From Alicyclobacillus sp. SO9 (GTDB taxonomy: Bacteria > Bacillota > Bacilli > Alicyclobacillales > Alicyclobacillaceae), in contig NZ_CP066339.1 in the NCBI RefSeq assembly GCF_016406125.1, positions 1,178,001 to 1,242,000 of the forward strand: 64,000 nt of DNA. The letters run 5' to 3'. The notes beneath the pieces were generated by a model, which ran no database searches, had not been told where the DNA came from, and saw only the letters and a list, made by a program, of their open reading frames with translations. Positions 3,058 to 54,425 of the stretch are shown here, one piece after another (position 1 is the stretch's first letter; each line of letters opens with the position of its first letter). The position numbers and the translations under genes were made by a program.

Positions 3058-3126
3058 CCAGTTCCCGCGAGGTGCATGAGGTGCATGAGGTGCATGAGGT
3101 GCATGAGGTGCAGTCGAGGGAACTGG
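3058..3126 (+). repeat. 9-bp tandem repeat held in a 13-bp stem
   Basis: Four perfect copies and a partial fifth of AGGTGCATG run from 3070 to about 3112. They are bracketed by inverted arms CCAGTTCCCGCGA (3058-3070) and TCGAGGGAACTGG (3114-3126), which pair over 13 bp with one mismatch. The structure begins just after the MreB-paralogue stop, so it would be a 3' UTR stem with a repeat-filled loop. No U tract follows. Confidence 0.75.
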
Positions 3127-3164: not shown

Positions 3165-3343
3165 ATAAGCCTCTCAGAAGAGCTTATGTGCTAGAGTCAG
3201 CGTGGAGGGGTACACTTAAGCACTTGAGAGGAGCTTATGGCGCTTGTCATGGCCGAAAATCGGCGGAAACAACCGTTTAAGCATCCCTGAAGAGCTTATA
3301 TCAGTCAATATGGCCAACTCTATGCGTATAAGCTCCTGACGGA
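3165..3343. repeat. Array of four 23-bp palindromes (array 1), last copy split by IS
   Basis: Imperfect hairpin units start at 3165, 3216, 3277 and 3328. Typical form is ATAAGC-CTCT..AGAG-CTTAT; all intact units are 23 bp. Starts are 51, 61 and 51 bp apart. The fourth unit is cut after 16 bp at 3343 by the insertion element and resumes with TCTCTAT at 4921-4927, so the uninterrupted unit would again be 23 bp. The same family forms a larger array at 39645-40104. Confidence 0.8.
3335..3343. repeat. Left target-site duplication of the IS element
   Basis: CCTGACGGA directly precedes the left inverted repeat and is repeated exactly at 4912-4920 after the right one. Nine bp is within the range of IS4-family elements, and the perfect match suggests a recent insertion. 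Confidence 0.9.
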
Positions 3344-3370
3344 TACTAGCATTGCATTAAATTTTTTGTG

Positions 3371-32494: not shown

Positions 32495-34192
32495 CTACAA
32501 CAAGGGTGCGAGAAGGCGTGCACCCTTGTTTCTGACTTTTGCCCACATGGGCTCACTTTCCATTTCTTGTGGTGTGAGCTCGATGGAATCTGCAATGTCC
32601 GCTGCAAACTGCTTCTGTAACAACTTCGCGAATTGGGTACTGTAGACAACCTCACAGGATTCGTAATTGTTCCGGAAACTGAGCAGGTCGTAGTTTGCGG
32701 CGCCTATGACACACGCTTCACTGTCTACAATGATGGATTTTGCGTGGAGAATGCCTTTTTTGTAGAGGTACACATTGATGCCCGCGAGCAACAAATCGGT
32801 ATAAAAAGTTCGGCAAGCCCACCCAATCAGCTTGTGATCGGGTTTCATTGGAACGACAAGCCGCACCGTCACCCCCCTCGCGGCAGCAGTCTTCAGTGCC
32901 GTCACCACATCCGTATCTGGTGCAAAGTAGGGTGTGATGATATCAAGTGTGTGCCTGGCCTCTGTTGCACACAGGAAAAACAGGTCCCTAACATGTTCCG
33001 CGTCACTGTCAGGACCGCTGTCCACGGTCTGTACCCAGGTATGCTGCGAAGGAGAAATTTCCTGTGTATCTGAAGACGCCTGCGCGACCAGTGATTCATG
33101 AGTAGGCACGGCCAGTTCTTCCGCAGCTTCAATCAACGGAAATTTGTCGCGAAGGGAAGCTTTTGAGCGTGCGCCGGCTTTGTTCGCGAACTTTGACGTC
33201 GAGCGTCCTTTGTGTCTGCATTTGTGTCTGTAGTTGAGATTGCCCTTTACCTTCAGTGGAACCCCGATGTCCCAGATGGCATCGAACACTTGCTGCAAAT
33301 ACTTCGTTCCCTCGCCTGTCAATTGCAAGTGTGTGTCGCGCCAAAACCCCGCATCTTCACTCTTACCTGTATATTCATCGCCAATGTTCATTCCGCCGAT
33401 GAGGCCAGTGTGTTGGTCTATGGTGACGATTTTATTGTGATCGCGATGGGTCACCATTGGACTAAACCAGACAGACAGCGGATGCACGGTTCTGACTTCA
33501 ATTCCCGCATTCGCCATAGCCAGAAGAACCCTTTTCGGCAGTTTCCGACTTCCGAGACCATCACGGAGCAGGCGAACGCGAACACCGTGCATCGATTTAT
33601 CGATGAGAATCTTGGTCACAGTCTGGCCCACCTCGTCGTTCCTGTATATGTAGTACTCCATATCAATGGTTTCCTTAGCGCTTCGAAGGGTCCGAAGCAG
33701 CATTCTGTACTTCGCTAAGCCATTCTTGAGGATGACGACTTCAGCGGGCAGGGGAGGACGCTCTAGCATGCGCGTCGCCCATGCGGAAATCGTTTGTGCT
33801 GCTCTCGCGTTGAGACGAGGTGAAGGCTCTGCTTCGGAATACTTTTCCTGGGAAAACCCTGCATGAGATTGCCCAGCCACAGAGGGCTTAGCCAGAGAGG
33901 GCTTAGCCAGAGAGGGCCCAGCCAGAGAGGGCTGTGCTTCGGCAGATCCTGTTTCGTCCCCGTGCAGCAGTGTAACTGCCGTTTTGATTTTATGTCCTCG
34001 TCGCACCTGCAAATACCTGCGCACCTGACGTTGTGACAATAAGAAATAGGCCATTGGTGCGAGAACCGGAATAACGAGGCTGAAGACAATCCAAGTAAGT
34101 GCAAGGATAGGTCGCTGAACCTCGCGAATGGCAATAATGAGAGATACGATAACGGAAGTAAAATAAAGGAAAAACAAAATGGTGAACAACAT
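32495..34192 (-). CDS. cls: Cardiolipin synthase (phospholipase D superfamily)
   Basis: A membrane enzyme joining two phosphatidylglycerols to cardiolipin. About 565 residues from the minus-strand ATG at 34192, which follows GGGAGGTG; an upstream ATG at 34216 is less likely. Two N-terminal helices (MLFTILFFLYFTSVIVSLII and the LTWIVFSLVIPVLAPMAYF region) precede two HKD catalytic motifs, HRDHNKIVTIDQ and HAKSIIVDSEACVIGAAN. A low-complexity insert of five-residue repeats (LAKPS type) lies between the membrane part and the first PLD domain, and another long polar insert separates the two PLD domains; the protein is longer than the roughly 480 residues usual. Confidence 0.92.
   Translation of the reverse strand: MLFTILFFLYFTSVIVSLIIAIREVQRPILALTWIVFSLVIPVLAPMAYFLLSQRQVRRYLQVRRGHKIKTAVTLLHGDETGSAEAQPSLAGPSLAKPSLAKPSVAGQSHAGFSQEKYSEAEPSPRLNARAAQTISAWATRMLERPPLPAEVVILKNGLAKYRMLLRTLRSAKETIDMEYYIYRNDEVGQTVTKILIDKSMHGVRVRLLRDGLGSRKLPKRVLLAMANAGIEVRTVHPLSVWFSPMVTHRDHNKIVTIDQHTGLIGGMNIGDEYTGKSEDAGFWRDTHLQLTGEGTKYLQQVFDAIWDIGVPLKVKGNLNYRHKCRHKGRSTSKFANKAGARSKASLRDKFPLIEAAEELAVPTHESLVAQASSDTQEISPSQHTWVQTVDSGPDSDAEHVRDLFFLCATEARHTLDIITPYFAPDTDVVTALKTAAARGVTVRLVVPMKPDHKLIGWACRTFYTDLLLAGINVYLYKKGILHAKSIIVDSEACVIGAANYDLLSFRNNYESCEVVYSTQFAKLLQKQFAADIADSIELTPQEMESEPMWAKVRNKGARLLAPLL
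32500..32529. terminator. Hairpin between convergent NlpC/P60 and cardiolipin synthase genes
   Basis: ACAAGGGTGC (32500-32509) pairs perfectly with GCACCCTTGT (32520-32529), followed by TTCTG. It overlaps the last codons of the synthase gene and would serve the plus-strand NlpC/P60 transcript. Confidence 0.7.
33872..33931 (-). repeat. Four in-frame 15-bp tandem repeats in cardiolipin synthase
   Basis: Units such as CTTAGCCAGAGAGGG are repeated at 33872, 33887, 33902 and 33917 with few differences. On the coding strand they encode a five-residue repeat of the LAKPS/LAGPS type in a linker. Period 15 keeps the reading frame. Confidence 0.9.
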
Positions 34193-38274: not shown

Positions 38275-39237
38275 ATGGAAAAACAACGAGTGATGATTCT
38301 AGGAACCGGTCCAGCCGGCCTTACAGCGGCCATCTATGCCGCTCGTGCAAATTTAGAACCGCTGGTTATAGAAGGAAATGAACCAGGCGGCCAATTGACT
38401 CTGACTACCGAGGTGGAGAACTTTCCTGGTTTCCCAGATGGCATCATGGGTCCTGAGCTAATGGACAGCATGCGTGAACAGGCCAAGAAATTTGGTGCAA
38501 AGTTCGTCATGGGCTGGGTATCAGGCGTTGACATGAGCGAACGTCCATTTAAAGTCACTGTTAACGAAAAAGATGAGTATCTATCGGACAGTTTGATCAT
38601 CTCCACGGGGGCTTCAGCTAAACTGCTTGGAATACCAGGTGAATCTGACAACATTGGCCGAGGCGTTTCAACCTGTGCTACATGTGACGGATTTTTCTTC
38701 CGAAACAAAAATATTATTGTTGTCGGCGGAGGAGACTCTGCCATGGAGGAGGCCACATTTTTAACGAAGTTTGCTTCGGAGGTCACGATTGTCCATCGGA
38801 GAAACGAACTTCGTGCCTCGCAGATTATGCAGGACAGGGCCCGTGAAAATCCGAAAATCAAATGGCTCTTGAATGTGACTCCCGTCGAGGTTAAATCCGA
38901 CGGAAACAAGGTCAATGCTTTGTCTGTAAAAGACAACGAAACCGGTGAAATTAAGGATGTGGAGACTACGGGCCTGTTTGTGGCCATTGGTCATCGTCCG
39001 AATACCGCTTTCTTAAACGGCCAGATTGATGTCGATAAAGTGGGGTATATCAAAACTCGCGGCGTATCAACAGCGACCAATGTAGAAGGTGTCTTTGCTT
39101 GCGGAGACGTTATGGATTCTCACTATCGCCAAGCCATTACGGCTGCCGGAAGCGGATGTAAAGCTGCCATGGATGTTGAAAAGTTTCTTGAAGGTTCGAG
39201 TGTCAATGATTGGCTTGAGGCCCCAGCAAAAGCATAG
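38275..39237 (+). CDS. trxB: Thioredoxin-disulfide reductase
   Basis: A 320-residue cytosolic flavoenzyme passing electrons from NADPH to thioredoxin. FAD site GTGPAGLTAAIYAAR (10-24), redox-active CATC (C134, C137) in STCATCDGFFF, NADPH site VVGGGDSAMEEA and the C-terminal FAD motif VFACGDVMD are all present. ATG at 38275 follows AGAGAGG. The length is standard. It is a single gene with a terminator about 130 bp downstream. Confidence 0.96.
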   Translation: MEKQRVMILGTGPAGLTAAIYAARANLEPLVIEGNEPGGQLTLTTEVENFPGFPDGIMGPELMDSMREQAKKFGAKFVMGWVSGVDMSERPFKVTVNEKDEYLSDSLIISTGASAKLLGIPGESDNIGRGVSTCATCDGFFFRNKNIIVVGGGDSAMEEATFLTKFASEVTIVHRRNELRASQIMQDRARENPKIKWLLNVTPVEVKSDGNKVNALSVKDNETGEIKDVETTGLFVAIGHRPNTAFLNGQIDVDKVGYIKTRGVSTATNVEGVFACGDVMDSHYRQAITAAGSGCKAAMDVEKFLEGSSVNDWLEAPAKA

Positions 39238-39289: not shown

Positions 39290-39335
39290 ATGGAATCGAA
39301 TGGAATTGAATGGAATCGAATGGAATCGAATGGAA
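39290..39335. repeat. Four-copy 10-bp tandem repeat (ATGGAATCGA)
   Basis: ATGGAATCGA, ATGGAATTGA, ATGGAATCGA, ATGGAATCGA then ATGGAA, just past trxB. It resembles GGAAT-type satellite by chance of composition, but it is embedded in unique bacterial sequence. Confidence 0.85.
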
Positions 39336-39370: not shown

Positions 39371-39400
39371 GAGGGTTGGCCGATGATTCGGCTAACCCTC
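39371..39400 (+). terminator. Intrinsic terminator of trxB
   Basis: GAGGGTTGGCCG (39371-39382) pairs with CGGCTAACCCTC (39389-39400) with one G-U pair, followed by TTTTTG. Confidence 0.9.
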
Positions 39401-39644: not shown

Positions 39645-39937
39645 CCGATAGGGATCGCAATGATCACTATCGGTCAAAGGGAGCTGATATAGTGATCGCA
39701 AAGATCACTACCCGGAGACAGAGAAAGGTCATAGTGTCGGAAAAGATCACTACTGGCCCTCCGTAGCGGCAGGAGAGTTGGAATAGTGATCAATTGGATC
39801 GTTAAGCTCAGGGTGAAGAGGGATAGTGATCAACGGGATCACTAAATTCAGAGACTTGGGTCAATAGTGATCGATGGGATCTCTAAGTTCCGAGAGAAGT
39901 CGGATGCCGAGGAAAATAGAGATCCGTGAAGTGCTTA
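39645..39937. repeat. Palindrome array 2, part A: seven TAGTGATC-type units
   Basis: Units of 22-23 bp begin at 39648, 39689, 39731, 39783, 39823, 39864 and 39916. Typical form is ATAGTGATC-N4-GATCACTA. Start-to-start distances are 41, 42, 52, 40, 41 and 52 bp, close to four, four, five, four, four and five helical turns. Sequence between units is purine-rich but not conserved. The seventh unit, ATAGAGATCCGTGAAGTGCT, is hybrid: one arm of this type, the other of the AAGCGCT type of part B. Confidence 0.85.
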
Positions 39938-39966
39938 TTATGGTTCATTGGAGGTGGGCCTGCAAA

Positions 39967-40104
39967 ATAGGCGCTTCTGAGAGGCTTATAAGTTCATTTT
40001 CGCCGGTTTTACGCTCGAAAATGCCGAATAAGCGCTTTTCACGAGCTTATTCGCCACCTCGTGGTAATGGGAAGCGGAATAGGCTCTTCACAAGCGCTTA
40101 TTCC
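39967..40104. repeat. Palindrome array 2, part B: three ATAAGC/GGC-type units
   Basis: Units of 23 bp begin at 39967, 40028 and 40079 (for example GAATAAGCGCTTTTCACGAG and on). With the hybrid unit at 39916 the spacings are 51, 61 and 51 bp, the same as in array 1 at 3165-3343. The spacer between the units at 39967 and 40028 contains TTTTCGCCGGTTTTACGC, similar to the reverse complement of the matching spacer in array 1 (TTTCCGCCGATTTTCGGC). The two arrays are therefore related copies in opposite orientation. Confidence 0.82.
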
Positions 40105-40184: not shown

Positions 40185-40907
40185 CTAATCTTCCTTTTGT
40201 CCCTCCACTACAGCTACAACACCACCCATAAGGTTGTGAAACGCGGTCCTTGCGAGGCCGTTACTGGCAAAGCGTTGCGTCAGTTGCTGTTGTGAATCAA
40301 ATTCTTTGGATGAATCGTGCAGATACTGATAGGCACTCTTTCGCTTGGCTGTGATTTTCCCCATGAGAGGGACAAGCCAATTGAAGTACAGCCAGTATAC
40401 CTGTTTGAAAACAGGCGCAGTGGGTTTCGCCATGTCGACGGACACAACCCAGCCGCCTGGTTTCACCACTCGGCGCATCTCTTGAAGTGTCTTGTCGATG
40501 TCTGGAACATTACGCAAACCCCAACCAACGGTGGCAGCATCAAACGAGTTATCAGGAAAAGGCAATGCCATTGCGTTGCCTTGAATGAGTTCAATCTGCT
40601 TATTCATGTCGGAAACTTTGACTTTTTGCTCACCTACAGCCAACATTTCCTCTGAAAAGTCAAGACCTGTGACATGGCCGCTCGGACCGACCGTGCCGGC
40701 AATTTCAAGAGTAAATTCTGCCGTACCACAGCACACATCAAGTACGTTCATGCCGTTTTGAATTCGAGCACGGCGCATAGCAAACTTCCGCCAGGCTTTG
40801 TCCCTGCCAAAACTCATCAGTGTATTCATGACGTCGTATCGTCGCGCAATTCCATTAAACATCTCGCGTACATAACGTTCTTTTTGATTCTTAGATGGAA
40901 GCTCCAT
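40185..40907 (-). CDS. menG: Demethylmenaquinone methyltransferase
   Basis: A 240-residue SAM-dependent methyltransferase of the UbiE/MenG family, making menaquinone for respiration. It starts KNQKERYVREMFNGIARRYDVMNTLMSFG, a family hallmark, then SAM motif I VLDVCCGTAEFTLE, GLDFSEEML, the central PFPDNSFDAATVGWGLRNV and RVVKPGGWV. Length is standard. It is isolated here from other men genes. The minus-strand ATG at 40907 is close to AGGAGTTAGG-type bases. Confidence 0.94.
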   Translation of the reverse strand: MELPSKNQKERYVREMFNGIARRYDVMNTLMSFGRDKAWRKFAMRRARIQNGMNVLDVCCGTAEFTLEIAGTVGPSGHVTGLDFSEEMLAVGEQKVKVSDMNKQIELIQGNAMALPFPDNSFDAATVGWGLRNVPDIDKTLQEMRRVVKPGGWVVSVDMAKPTAPVFKQVYWLYFNWLVPLMGKITAKRKSAYQYLHDSSKEFDSQQQLTQRFASNGLARTAFHNLMGGVVAVVEGQKED

Positions 40908-41174: not shown

Positions 41175-42479
41175 ATGAATGAGTCATCAAATCAGGCAGA
41201 TACGACGTCGCCGAGTACTCATATCGGTACAACGTCATTTTCTATGAACGGAACATCAAACAAAACATCAAACAAAACGTCACAAACAAACTCGTCGTTC
41301 AGCGGCACAGCATCTTCTTCTACAAATGGAACACACCGTGAGAGAGGGGTGTCCCAAACAAAGGCGTCCCAAATGAAGGCCTCCCAAATGAAGGCCTCCC
41401 AAACGAAGGCCTCCCAAATGAAGGCCTCCCAAACGAACGGCGTTTCTCGCACGACGAGCGAGTGGGCAGTGGAGGCAGAAGGGCTTGTAAAAATCTTTGG
41501 CCAGAACCGTGCAGTGGATGGGGTTCACCTGAAGGTTCCAACCGGTACGATTTACGGCGTGCTGGGTCCAAATGGAGCAGGGAAGACAACGACAATTCGC
41601 ATGTTGGCCACATTGCTTCGACCTGATGCAGGTACTGCGCGGGTGTTTGGCCACGATGTTACGAAGGAGCCGCAGATTGTTCGCCAGTTGATTGGTGTCA
41701 CGGGACAGTATGCGTCCGTGGATGAAACTCTGAGTGCGACAGAAAATCTGATACTCTTCTCACGCTTGCTGGGATTAAGTCGAAGTGAGGCACGGCGCAA
41801 GGCTAATGATTTGCTGGAGGAATTCGGATTGACGGAAGCTGCTAAACGTCCGTTGAAGAAGTTTTCAGGCGGAATGCGCCGCCGTCTCGATCTCGCTGCA
41901 AGCTTGATTGCACAGCCGCCGCTGATTTTCCTTGACGAGCCGACGACGGGCCTCGATCCAAGAACGCGTGCACAGATGTGGGGGACCATTCGGAGGTTGG
42001 TGAAAACGGGATCGACCGTGTTGTTAACAACGCAGTACCTGGATGAAGCCGATCAACTCGCAGACCGCATCGCAGTCATTGACAGCGGCCGGGTGGTCGC
42101 GGAAGGAACTGTGGATGAACTCAAGGAGACTGCTGGCACGGCAGCGTTGCAGTTGCGCCTGCAAGATACACATCAGATGAATACAGCAAGGGACATTGTC
42201 AACCGAGTGCTGAAGGTGCAGGCAACGGAGTCGCCGGAAAGCGGAAAACTCACGGCTCCTTTGAGAGATGCCGACCGAGTGACGGACCTGCTCGTCGCTT
42301 TGCGCCAGTCCGGGATTCACTTGACAGAGTTCAGCGTGCAAAAACCGACCCTTGACGAAGTGTTCTTGGCGATTACGGGACATGGCGTCGAAACACAGGC
42401 TGGGGCGTCGGATGCAATGGCAACCCACGCCATGGAGTCGCAGACAGCAGAAAACAAAAAGGAGGCAGTACGGGGATGA
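41175..42479 (+). CDS. DrrA-type multidrug ABC exporter ATPase with repeat-rich N-terminus
   Basis: 434 residues from ATG 41175 (CAGGAGGTAT upstream). Residues 1-97 are an unusual Ser/Thr/Asn/Lys-rich extension with (N)KTS repeats and six five-residue SQMKA/SQTKA repeats. The ATPase domain has Walker A GPNGAGKTTT, Q-loop GVTGQYASVDE, signature FSGGMRRRLDLAASL, Walker B PLIFLDEPTTGLD and a C-terminal DrrA-like section (PTLDEVFLAITGHG). With the next gene it forms an exporter. The extension is absent from ordinary DrrA proteins. Confidence 0.92.
   Translation: MNESSNQADTTSPSTHIGTTSFSMNGTSNKTSNKTSQTNSSFSGTASSSTNGTHRERGVSQTKASQMKASQMKASQTKASQMKASQTNGVSRTTSEWAVEAEGLVKIFGQNRAVDGVHLKVPTGTIYGVLGPNGAGKTTTIRMLATLLRPDAGTARVFGHDVTKEPQIVRQLIGVTGQYASVDETLSATENLILFSRLLGLSRSEARRKANDLLEEFGLTEAAKRPLKKFSGGMRRRLDLAASLIAQPPLIFLDEPTTGLDPRTRAQMWGTIRRLVKTGSTVLLTTQYLDEADQLADRIAVIDSGRVVAEGTVDELKETAGTAALQLRLQDTHQMNTARDIVNRVLKVQATESPESGKLTAPLRDADRVTDLLVALRQSGIHLTEFSVQKPTLDEVFLAITGHGVETQAGASDAMATHAMESQTAENKKEAVRG
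41352..41441 (+). repeat. Six in-frame 15-bp tandem repeats in the exporter ATPase gene
   Basis: TCCCAAATGAAGGCC-type units at 41352, 41367, 41382, 41397, 41412 and 41427, differing at one to four positions. They encode SQ(T/M)KA repeats in the polar N-terminal extension. Shorter ACATCAAACAAA-type repeats precede them near 41250-41285. Confidence 0.95.
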
Positions 42480-54151: not shown

Positions 54152-54227
54152 CAAGGCTCTGGTCCTGGCATACGATAAAATCACAATTTGTTGCCTTTGG
54201 GTGCCCCAATGGATGAACAACTGTTAG

Positions 54228-54425
54228 GTGTGAAGGTTTTTTGCATCGAGCGTTTCATCGTGTCAGGGGAGAATAGGGAAGCCGGTGTAAATCCGGCGCG
54301 GTCCCGCCACTGTAAACAGCCAATACTCATGGCTGCCACTGTTTCCGAAGGGAAATGGGAAGGCGCCAACTAGAGTGGCTGTGAGCCAGGAGACCTGCCT
54401 AGAGGCCAGCGTGTGCTTAAGCCTT
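54228..54425 (+). promoter_or_regulatory. Cobalamin riboswitch
   Basis: Core elements in order: GGTGTGAAGG (P1/P2 entry), GGGGAGAATAGGGAAGCCGG, GTGTAAATCCGGCGCGGTCC, CGCCACTGTAA, and after a variable arm GAGTGGCTGTGAGCCAGGAG then ACCTGCC. These match the B12-box and aptamer core. It precedes the btuFCD genes and should switch them off when adenosylcobalamin is plentiful. The terminator at 54472 is the probable expression platform. Confidence 0.95.

Follow-up and report, generated by a model that had tools for sequence, protein, structure and literature searches.

Between two convergent genes of Alicyclobacillus sp. SO9, we identified an array of ten 21-bp sites standing close to whole helical turns apart, and arrays of this geometry recur across the genome and, in other letters, in its relatives. 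Judging from the sequences, these are probably operator-like arrays for a putative dimeric DNA-binding protein that would build a same-face nucleoprotein complex at gene ends. The sites start at positions 39649, 39690, 39732, 39784, 39824, 39865, 39917, 39968, 40029 and 40080 of the window, that is, of the whole 64,000-nucleotide stretch analysed, and their start-to-start distances of 41, 42, 52, 40, 41, 52, 51, 61 and 51 bp match exactly those given in an earlier note for ten palindromes. Each site starts with TA(A/G), ends with (C/T)TA and consists of two half-sites. Chance does not account for such a row: phased TARN15YTA sites form a chain of up to 10 in the window, whereas in 100 first-order Markov shuffles the longest chain had 1 member in 85 cases and 2 in the other 15. 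The sites are real, but they form two abutting elements, A with six and B with four, rather than one array of ten, and the apparent repeat of the distances, (41,42,52)(40,41,52), is the near-mirror spacing of A followed by the 52-bp step to B. Nor are all of them good palindromes: the complementary arm positions number 7, 8, 5, 6, 8 and 7 of 8 in the successive sites of A and 3, 4, 6 and 6 of 8 in those of B, and it is the half-site that is kept, not the pairing. The features concerned are:

3166..3348, + strand: second B element, sites at 3166, 3217, 3278 and 3329 (the fourth one base short), spacing 51-61-51
38275..39237, + strand: left neighbour of the array, a gene that we take to be thioredoxin-reductase-like, with a Pyr_redox_2 match in the pooled Pfam scan
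39371..39400, + strand: terminator-like stem-loop 3' of the left gene, apart from the array and about 250 bp upstream of it
39649..39885, + strand: element A, six 21-bp sites with half-site consensus TAGKGATC, spacing 41-42-52-40-41, an architecture that recurs in 47 further six-site elements of the genome
39917..40100, + strand: element B, four 21-bp sites (39917, 39968, 40029, 40080) with TAAGCNCTT-type and GATC-type half-sites mixed, spacing 51-61-51
40185..40907, - strand: right neighbour of the array, a ubiE/COQ5-type methyltransferase gene, matched in the pooled Pfam scan

The array sits between the two 3' ends of its neighbours. A terminator reading was rejected, as the terminator-like site of the left gene is separate from the array and lies upstream of it, and so was a CRISPR: sites within one A element differ, spacers recur between copies, and spacers are alike within the 41-bp array of a relative (G020, below). 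On these features of sites, spacers and terminator, the earlier description as neither CRISPR nor known terminator stands. Short simple repeats at 39290-39335 and 3069-3112, for example ATGGAATCGA x4.6 and GAGGTGCAT x4.9, adjoin the palindrome arrays of the window, and by eye such repeats also lie directly beside arrays at L009, L042, L072 and L110, relatives included. Elsewhere, the window contains 15-bp tandem repeats within open frames at 33875-33933 and 41352-41437, whose products are presumably a phospholipase-D-like and an ABC-transporter-like protein, and a Cobalamin riboswitch at 54217-54416 on the + strand (101 bits; gathering score 31.5).

The search for more copies that the earlier note had proposed returned them in large numbers. 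The genome under study (G000; 5.29 Mb in a 2-contig assembly rated 100% complete), which has no congener among the genomes compared, contains 342 matches to the A-type pattern TAGTGATC-N5-GATCACTA with up to 2 mismatches, versus 1 for the reversed control and 0-4 per genome in 40 relatives. B-type sites with up to 1 mismatch number 49, and each of the 40 family relatives has 0. In twenty stretches picked from the A matches, together with the window, we found 48 six-site A elements, frequently in tandem runs of 2-5. The number comes from 61 listed chains, of which 47 with a score of at least 85 were kept and the window element added in its true register; the register of the 14 left out, two of which came from the window, was shifted or incorrect. 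By eye, the outermost sites mark the limit of homology between A elements. Among the 24 elements with mutual identity under 85%, which we retained for the pairing tests, 20 make up a main family, 63-84% alike, whose members occur at loci with unrelated flanks, so copies did spread. The remaining 4, including that of the window, have the six-site geometry in common with the others yet reach just 51-65% identity to them when the full element with its sites is compared. B-type spacing of 50/51-61/62/63-51 was found in L013, L042, L057 and L058, and B sites often join an TAAGCNCTT half with a GATC half. Two observations stand beside these counts. At L016 (2387-6837), two A-element pairs are exactly 3709 bp apart, apparently one duplicated block, and arrays may serve as recombination sites. 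At L042 (11727-11822), three TATACCCC/GGGTATA palindromes, 32 and 43 bp apart, lie beside a B element; G000 may have in them a third phased motif.

As the template for six-site chains fixed the spacing to within 1 bp, the case for phasing rests on a distance histogram computed with no distance prior. Among 263 sites in 600 kb, 143 pairs were 26-70 bp apart; all except one, at 33 bp, fell at 40-43, 51-53 or 61-63 bp, and the clustering at whole helical turns anticipated by the earlier note is there. Shared ancestry of the copies means that the pairs are not independent of one another, and we therefore listed 18 modal spacings by hand, from eight motif families and several genomes, leaving out the candidate ATATACCCC set (32 and 43 bp). 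They gave a vector length of R=0.88 and an offset of zero at 10.3 bp per turn. As R is almost flat over 10 to 11 bp per turn, and spacings of 40 and 50 bp fall 0.2 turn short of integral at 10.5 bp per turn, the sites would lie only approximately on one face of the helix, with helical periodicity setting their distances.

The letters of the half-sites are conserved more strictly than those between the sites. We compared neighbouring copies that were more than 80% alike but not identical, 21 pairs in all, and counted 40/2013 differences in half-sites, 26/630 in the five central bases and 147/2365 in spacers. Half-sites are three times less diverged than spacers (OR 0.31, p=1e-12); the flanking 80 bp showed 323/1546 differences, with flanks partly not homologous. 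Gene conversion could account for part of the low half-site divergence, and the pattern suggests that half-sites are under selection in place.

The pairing between arms is not conserved in the same way, and the compensatory change suggested in the earlier note is absent. At arm position 4, the 144 sites of the 24 elements carry T/G 41 times, T/T 38, G/G 30, G/T 30 and other combinations 5 times, giving 68 Watson–Crick pairs versus a shuffled mean of 76.8. Over all 48 stem pairs, doubly changed pairs numbered 5 versus 9.4 on average in shuffled alignments, 500 of 500 shuffles reaching at least the observed number, and the covariation score was 0.060 versus 0.068. Paired cells made up 81.3%, versus 82.1% in shuffled alignments and 30-47% in slid controls; palindromic half-sites give such an excess over slid controls anyway. 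The sites of two relatives were compared with shuffles that ignore the kinship of sites: among 72 unique sites of G024, six of seven arm positions had no pairing beyond shuffles and position 8 was paired (30/1000 shuffles as high), and among 57 unique sites of G002, position 3 leaned toward paired arms (4/1000) and positions 5 and 8 were borderline (54 and 51 of 1000). The two arms vary independently, and an RNA hairpin is therefore not what is kept. Rfam gave no match over the window array or in six further loci, and with compensatory change absent, a structured RNA or string of terminators was rejected.

In relatives, 21-bp TAR...YTA palindromes with the cores CGCG, GGAAC or GTGTCA stand mostly 39-42, 50-53 or 61-63 bp apart. 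Exact TARCGCG sites number 439 in G002, 182 in G024, 9 in G020, 3 in G006 and 0-1 in the rest of 41 genomes. They form five-site elements in G024, spaced 53-40-40-53 with the variants 53-50-40-53 and 53-39-51-53, and G002 has the same five-site sets along with a repeating 40-50-53 rhythm. G017, from the genus of G002 and G024, carries 330 TARNGGAAC sites (up to 1 mismatch), with 51-bp arrays at the two places read; elsewhere these sites number 71 in G005, 21 in G006 (control 2), 20 in G046 and 0-1 in the rest of the 41 genomes. The first two sites listed in G005 are 73 bp apart, and the two perfect sites read in G046 stand 279 bp apart, so an array is not demonstrated there. An exact GGAAC scan over 398 genomes of the class, a draw outside which G017 falls, found matches in 4: 13 in G005, 3 in G046 and single sites in two genomes outside the family. 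The third core type, TAGGTGTCA with up to 2 mismatches, has 534 sites in G020 and 36 in its congener G056, arranged as 41-bp units with some 52-bp steps. G020 has in addition a second family of 19-bp TAGCGCC sites with steps of 31-32 and 40-41 bp, one array of which has a degenerate end with steps of 28-53-28 bp, and a further set spaced 52-62-51. A second motif of G002, CTTACGCACCCACAGTGCGTAAG and variants, forms a 52-53 bp tandem at L076 (180-620) and is also present in gap o34 of the rho region; in one gap it stands next to TARCGCG sites.

In G000, G002 and G024 the sites are grouped by four, five or six with near mirror symmetry, and in G017, G020 and G056 they form plain tandem rows; the motif groups cut across genera. 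De novo scans revealed no phased TAR arrays in 160 kb each of G046, G047 and G048 (plus the 60-kb rho region of G047), in 120 kb and 60 kb of G010, in 20 kb each of G044, G019, G022 and G037, in 40 kb each of G023 and G027, or in 17 kb of G008, and a general repeat scan of G046, G047, G048, G010, G044 and G027 found unrelated repeats only. The first 55 kb of the array-bearing G017 are also empty of arrays, so partial samples of this kind are no proof of absence. Taken across these genomes, the geometry outlives the letters of both spacers and sites.

Close species share positions as well as geometry. In the 60 kb around rho, where we scored a gap as an array at three sites or more, G024 and G002 have 45 neighbouring gene pairs in common; both have arrays at 6 of these, neither at 39, and discordant gaps number 0. 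G017 lacks all six common arrays and has one array elsewhere there. Insertion polymorphism is thus lacking between G024 and G002 (6/6 positions common), with their congener G017 without all six. Between genera, array positions are not clearly shared: G024 and G000 both have an array at 1 gap, only one of them at 2 and 1, and neither at 21, the corresponding numbers for G024 and G020 being 1, 3, 1 and 28. A site-by-site comparison was possible in three of the six common gaps, the G002 arrays being duplicated, rearranged or shortened in the other three. The orthologous arrays read 53-40-40-52 in G024 versus 53-51-39-53 in G002, 52-40-40-53 versus 53-40-50-53, and 53-51-39-53 versus 52-(41-40)-53, the last with a degenerate middle site. 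Every comparison has one step that differs by 10-11 bp, or one turn, and other steps that differ by 0-1 bp. Mismatches in the alignment of the two genomes (39/261 in halves, 81/261 in spacers, 55/263 in flanks) do not separate site from flank and have little weight, as the alignment is heavily gapped.

In G000, the genomic setting points toward gene ends. Of its 34 array loci, 17 have convergent neighbours, a class of gap that takes up 13% of the intergenic sequence in the 19 stretches sampled (p=4e-7), and 4 have divergent neighbours, a class that takes up 24% (p=0.07). The counts for G024 and G002 together are 13/28 convergent (p=0.07) and 4/28 divergent (p=0.04), one of 29 loci being excluded for want of a called right neighbour; the convergent preference is accordingly not significant in G024/G002, and avoidance of divergent gaps is not significant in G000 and weak in G024/G002. 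Genes were called by a simple open-frame rule, and the called frames that overlap arrays (90-146 aa at 15/34 loci of G000; 91-127 aa at 5/29 loci of G024/G002) are taken for chance frames. The 55 flanking proteins match 136 Pfam families with no family in more than two members, and a common neighbouring gene was rejected on this ground. Among ten proteins beside divergent arrays, none has a DNA-binding family and four are without a Pfam match.

On the chromosome of G000, with dnaA at C1:1102 and the GC skew turning near 2.6 Mb, the 34 A loci with a perfect site are concentrated toward the origin, at a median distance of 0.21 of the arm (KS p=2e-4). The test placed 58 of the 61 perfect A sites counted; the other three must lie past 4.76 Mb, near the origin. 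For B loci the bias is not significant (p=0.13; 24 entries, two pairs 2 kb apart being counted singly). The two types co-locate: with all 49 of 49 B sites grouped into 22 loci, 5 are within 1 kb of an A site, versus a random mean of 0.39, and 0 of 5000 placements were as high. A further cluster was seen in G024, where seven 20-kb stretches of C1 97-218 kb (L072, L126-L131), roughly 100-220 kb left of dnaA, contain 15 loci with at least three sites; seven other stretches of that genome have at most one single site each.

We propose that an array would be a platform of duplex DNA, with pairs of half-sites about 4, 5 or 6 helical turns apart. A homodimeric, sequence-specific putative protein would bind each site, dimers on one helix face would contact one another, and the bound dimers, by folding or bridging the DNA, would jointly form a compact complex with it at gene ends. 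The role of this complex would likely be in chromosome architecture, as a domain boundary, loop anchor or insulator of transcription or supercoils, rather than in the control of a single pathway, and the protein may exist in a separate version in each species, its recognition element changed. A wider reading, quite possible and held here as tentative, is a family-wide chromosome scaffold defined by geometry, not sequence: fast-evolving dimers on 4-6-turn arrays, often at gene ends, with letters replaced between congeners, and geometry and close-species positions kept, as if the site set were rewritten whenever the specificity of the protein changed.

The arrays could instead be non-autonomous mobile elements of a REP/REPIN- or MITE-like kind, moved by a transposase that needs several phased sites, with conservation reflecting the needs of transposition. 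High copy number, a motif that differs by species as in REPs, motif groups that cross genus borders, the main-family A copies at unrelated flanks (20 of 24 representatives, 63-84% alike) and the absence from G017 of the six arrays common to its congeners are all in keeping with this. Nevertheless, G000, rated complete in its two contigs, has no match to a Y1/REP transposase, all six positions are common to G024 and G002, half-sites remain conserved after local duplication, and no transposase family is enriched among the 55 flanking proteins, which include one Transposase_mut. PF01797 (Y1) has 5 matches in G002, 5 in G024 and 2 in G012, a single partial one in G020, and 0 in G000, G017, G004 and G053. 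When G024 and G002 are compared, the arrays behave unlike active insertions, and we regard mobility as an unlikely explanation of what they are; a past, transposase-driven spread of the main A family is possible. A phage or plasmid source was also rejected. The pattern of adjacent A sites matched singly in 2 viral stretches, neither in an array, and in 6 stretches of an 84,980-species collection (own or very near records possibly excluded), none in an array; an 8-kb neighbouring stretch had no plasmid match.

As a special case of the operator-like reading, a member of the ParB family (Spo0J, Noc or a relative) could bind the arrays in the manner of a centromere or of nucleoid-occlusion sites, and would thereby bring the DNA to partition or to the membrane. 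The origin bias of A loci fits, as do the likeness of the 41-bp tandem arrays of G020 and G056 to the F-plasmid centromere (PMC6238139) and the scattering of Noc sites over the chromosome (PMC8429893). Against this, two ParB_N proteins are found in each of the five array-rich genomes searched, and of seven other genomes four also have two, with one or two extra weaker matches in G053, G010 and G048; in these genomes the presence of arrays is thus not accompanied by any ParB_N gene of its own. The second ParB_N protein, its sequence read in four genomes without demonstrated arrays, we take to be Noc. The helix-turn-helix stretch of ParB is moreover nearly unchanged across species with quite different motifs. 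ParB is an unlikely binder, and we judge this special case rather unlikely.

Operators of an ordinary transcription regulator, making the array loci a regulon, would explain why palindromic dimer sites are phased, as they are in operators of the Lrp type (PMC2995911), but among the 62 array loci that have called genes on both sides just 8 have divergent ones, and the flanking proteins have no family in more than two members, making a regulon improbable. Successive RNA hairpins, within a 3' UTR or a small RNA and acting in stability, termination or as a sponge, are very improbable. Arrays often lie downstream of genes and the window array folds strongly as a single strand (z=-6.3), as would any palindrome string, and the paired cells exceed slid controls as palindromic half-sites require. 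But covariation is below shuffles, arms are independent, pairing in several B sites is down to 2-4 of 8 positions with half-sites intact, nothing in an RNA would call for the helical spacing to stay constant where spacers have diverged, and Rfam has no match. The earlier note had left the choice open between a protein on one helix face and RNA hairpins; phasing in the genome and its relatives and the whole-turn changes in three orthologous arrays support the former, and the latter is unsupported.

At least three genera, perhaps more (g1: G000; g3: G002, G024, G017; g8: G020, G056), carry phased sites by the tens to hundreds in each genome, which implies a previously unrecognised protein that organises, or else mobilises, DNA. 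The orthologous arrays that differ by one turn would be a natural experiment on helical phasing, and the motif groups one on the turnover of DNA-recognition specificity at constant geometry. A literature search, with subscription journals largely outside its reach, found no description of such phased arrays.

Among known systems, REP/BIME/REPIN sequences with their TnpA-REP (RAYT) proteins are similarly short extragenic palindromes, species-specific, in high copy and in tandem clusters (PMC8266576). The arrays differ in that the arms are not conserved as stems, the spacing is near whole turns rather than set by the variable linkers of REP/iREP pairs, and the letters before type A sites vary, with no fixed GTAG tetranucleotide; with 0 PF01797 matches in addition, a REP/RAYT system was rejected for G000. 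Noc-binding sites are also scattered round the chromosome, as the A loci are, these being denser near the origin, but they are 16 bp long, the accessible part of the account mentions no phased arrays (PMC8429893), and the array motif changes between congeners. The F-plasmid centromere, sopC/parS_F, bound by SopB/ParB_F, has twelve 43-bp repeats with 16-bp inverted repeats, and thus tandem units of about four turns that bind dimers (PMC6238139), similar to the 41-bp units of G020 and G056. It is a single plasmid locus, unlike the hundreds of chromosomal sites here, and the array-rich genomes have no extra ParB, and G000 has mirror-symmetric sets of 4-6 sites. In the Lrp family, for example Ss-LrpB, dimers occupy one helix face, helical periodicity sets the site spacing and the DNA is wrapped (PMC2995911). 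The arrays, known here from sequence alone, have the same-face phasing of dimer sites in common with these operators, and differ in standing mostly 4-6 turns apart and often at gene ends, versus 2-3 turns at promoters. Of the published systems considered here, the F centromere and the Lrp operators, neither of them a demonstrated relative, come nearest to the arrays and would work in a partly similar way.
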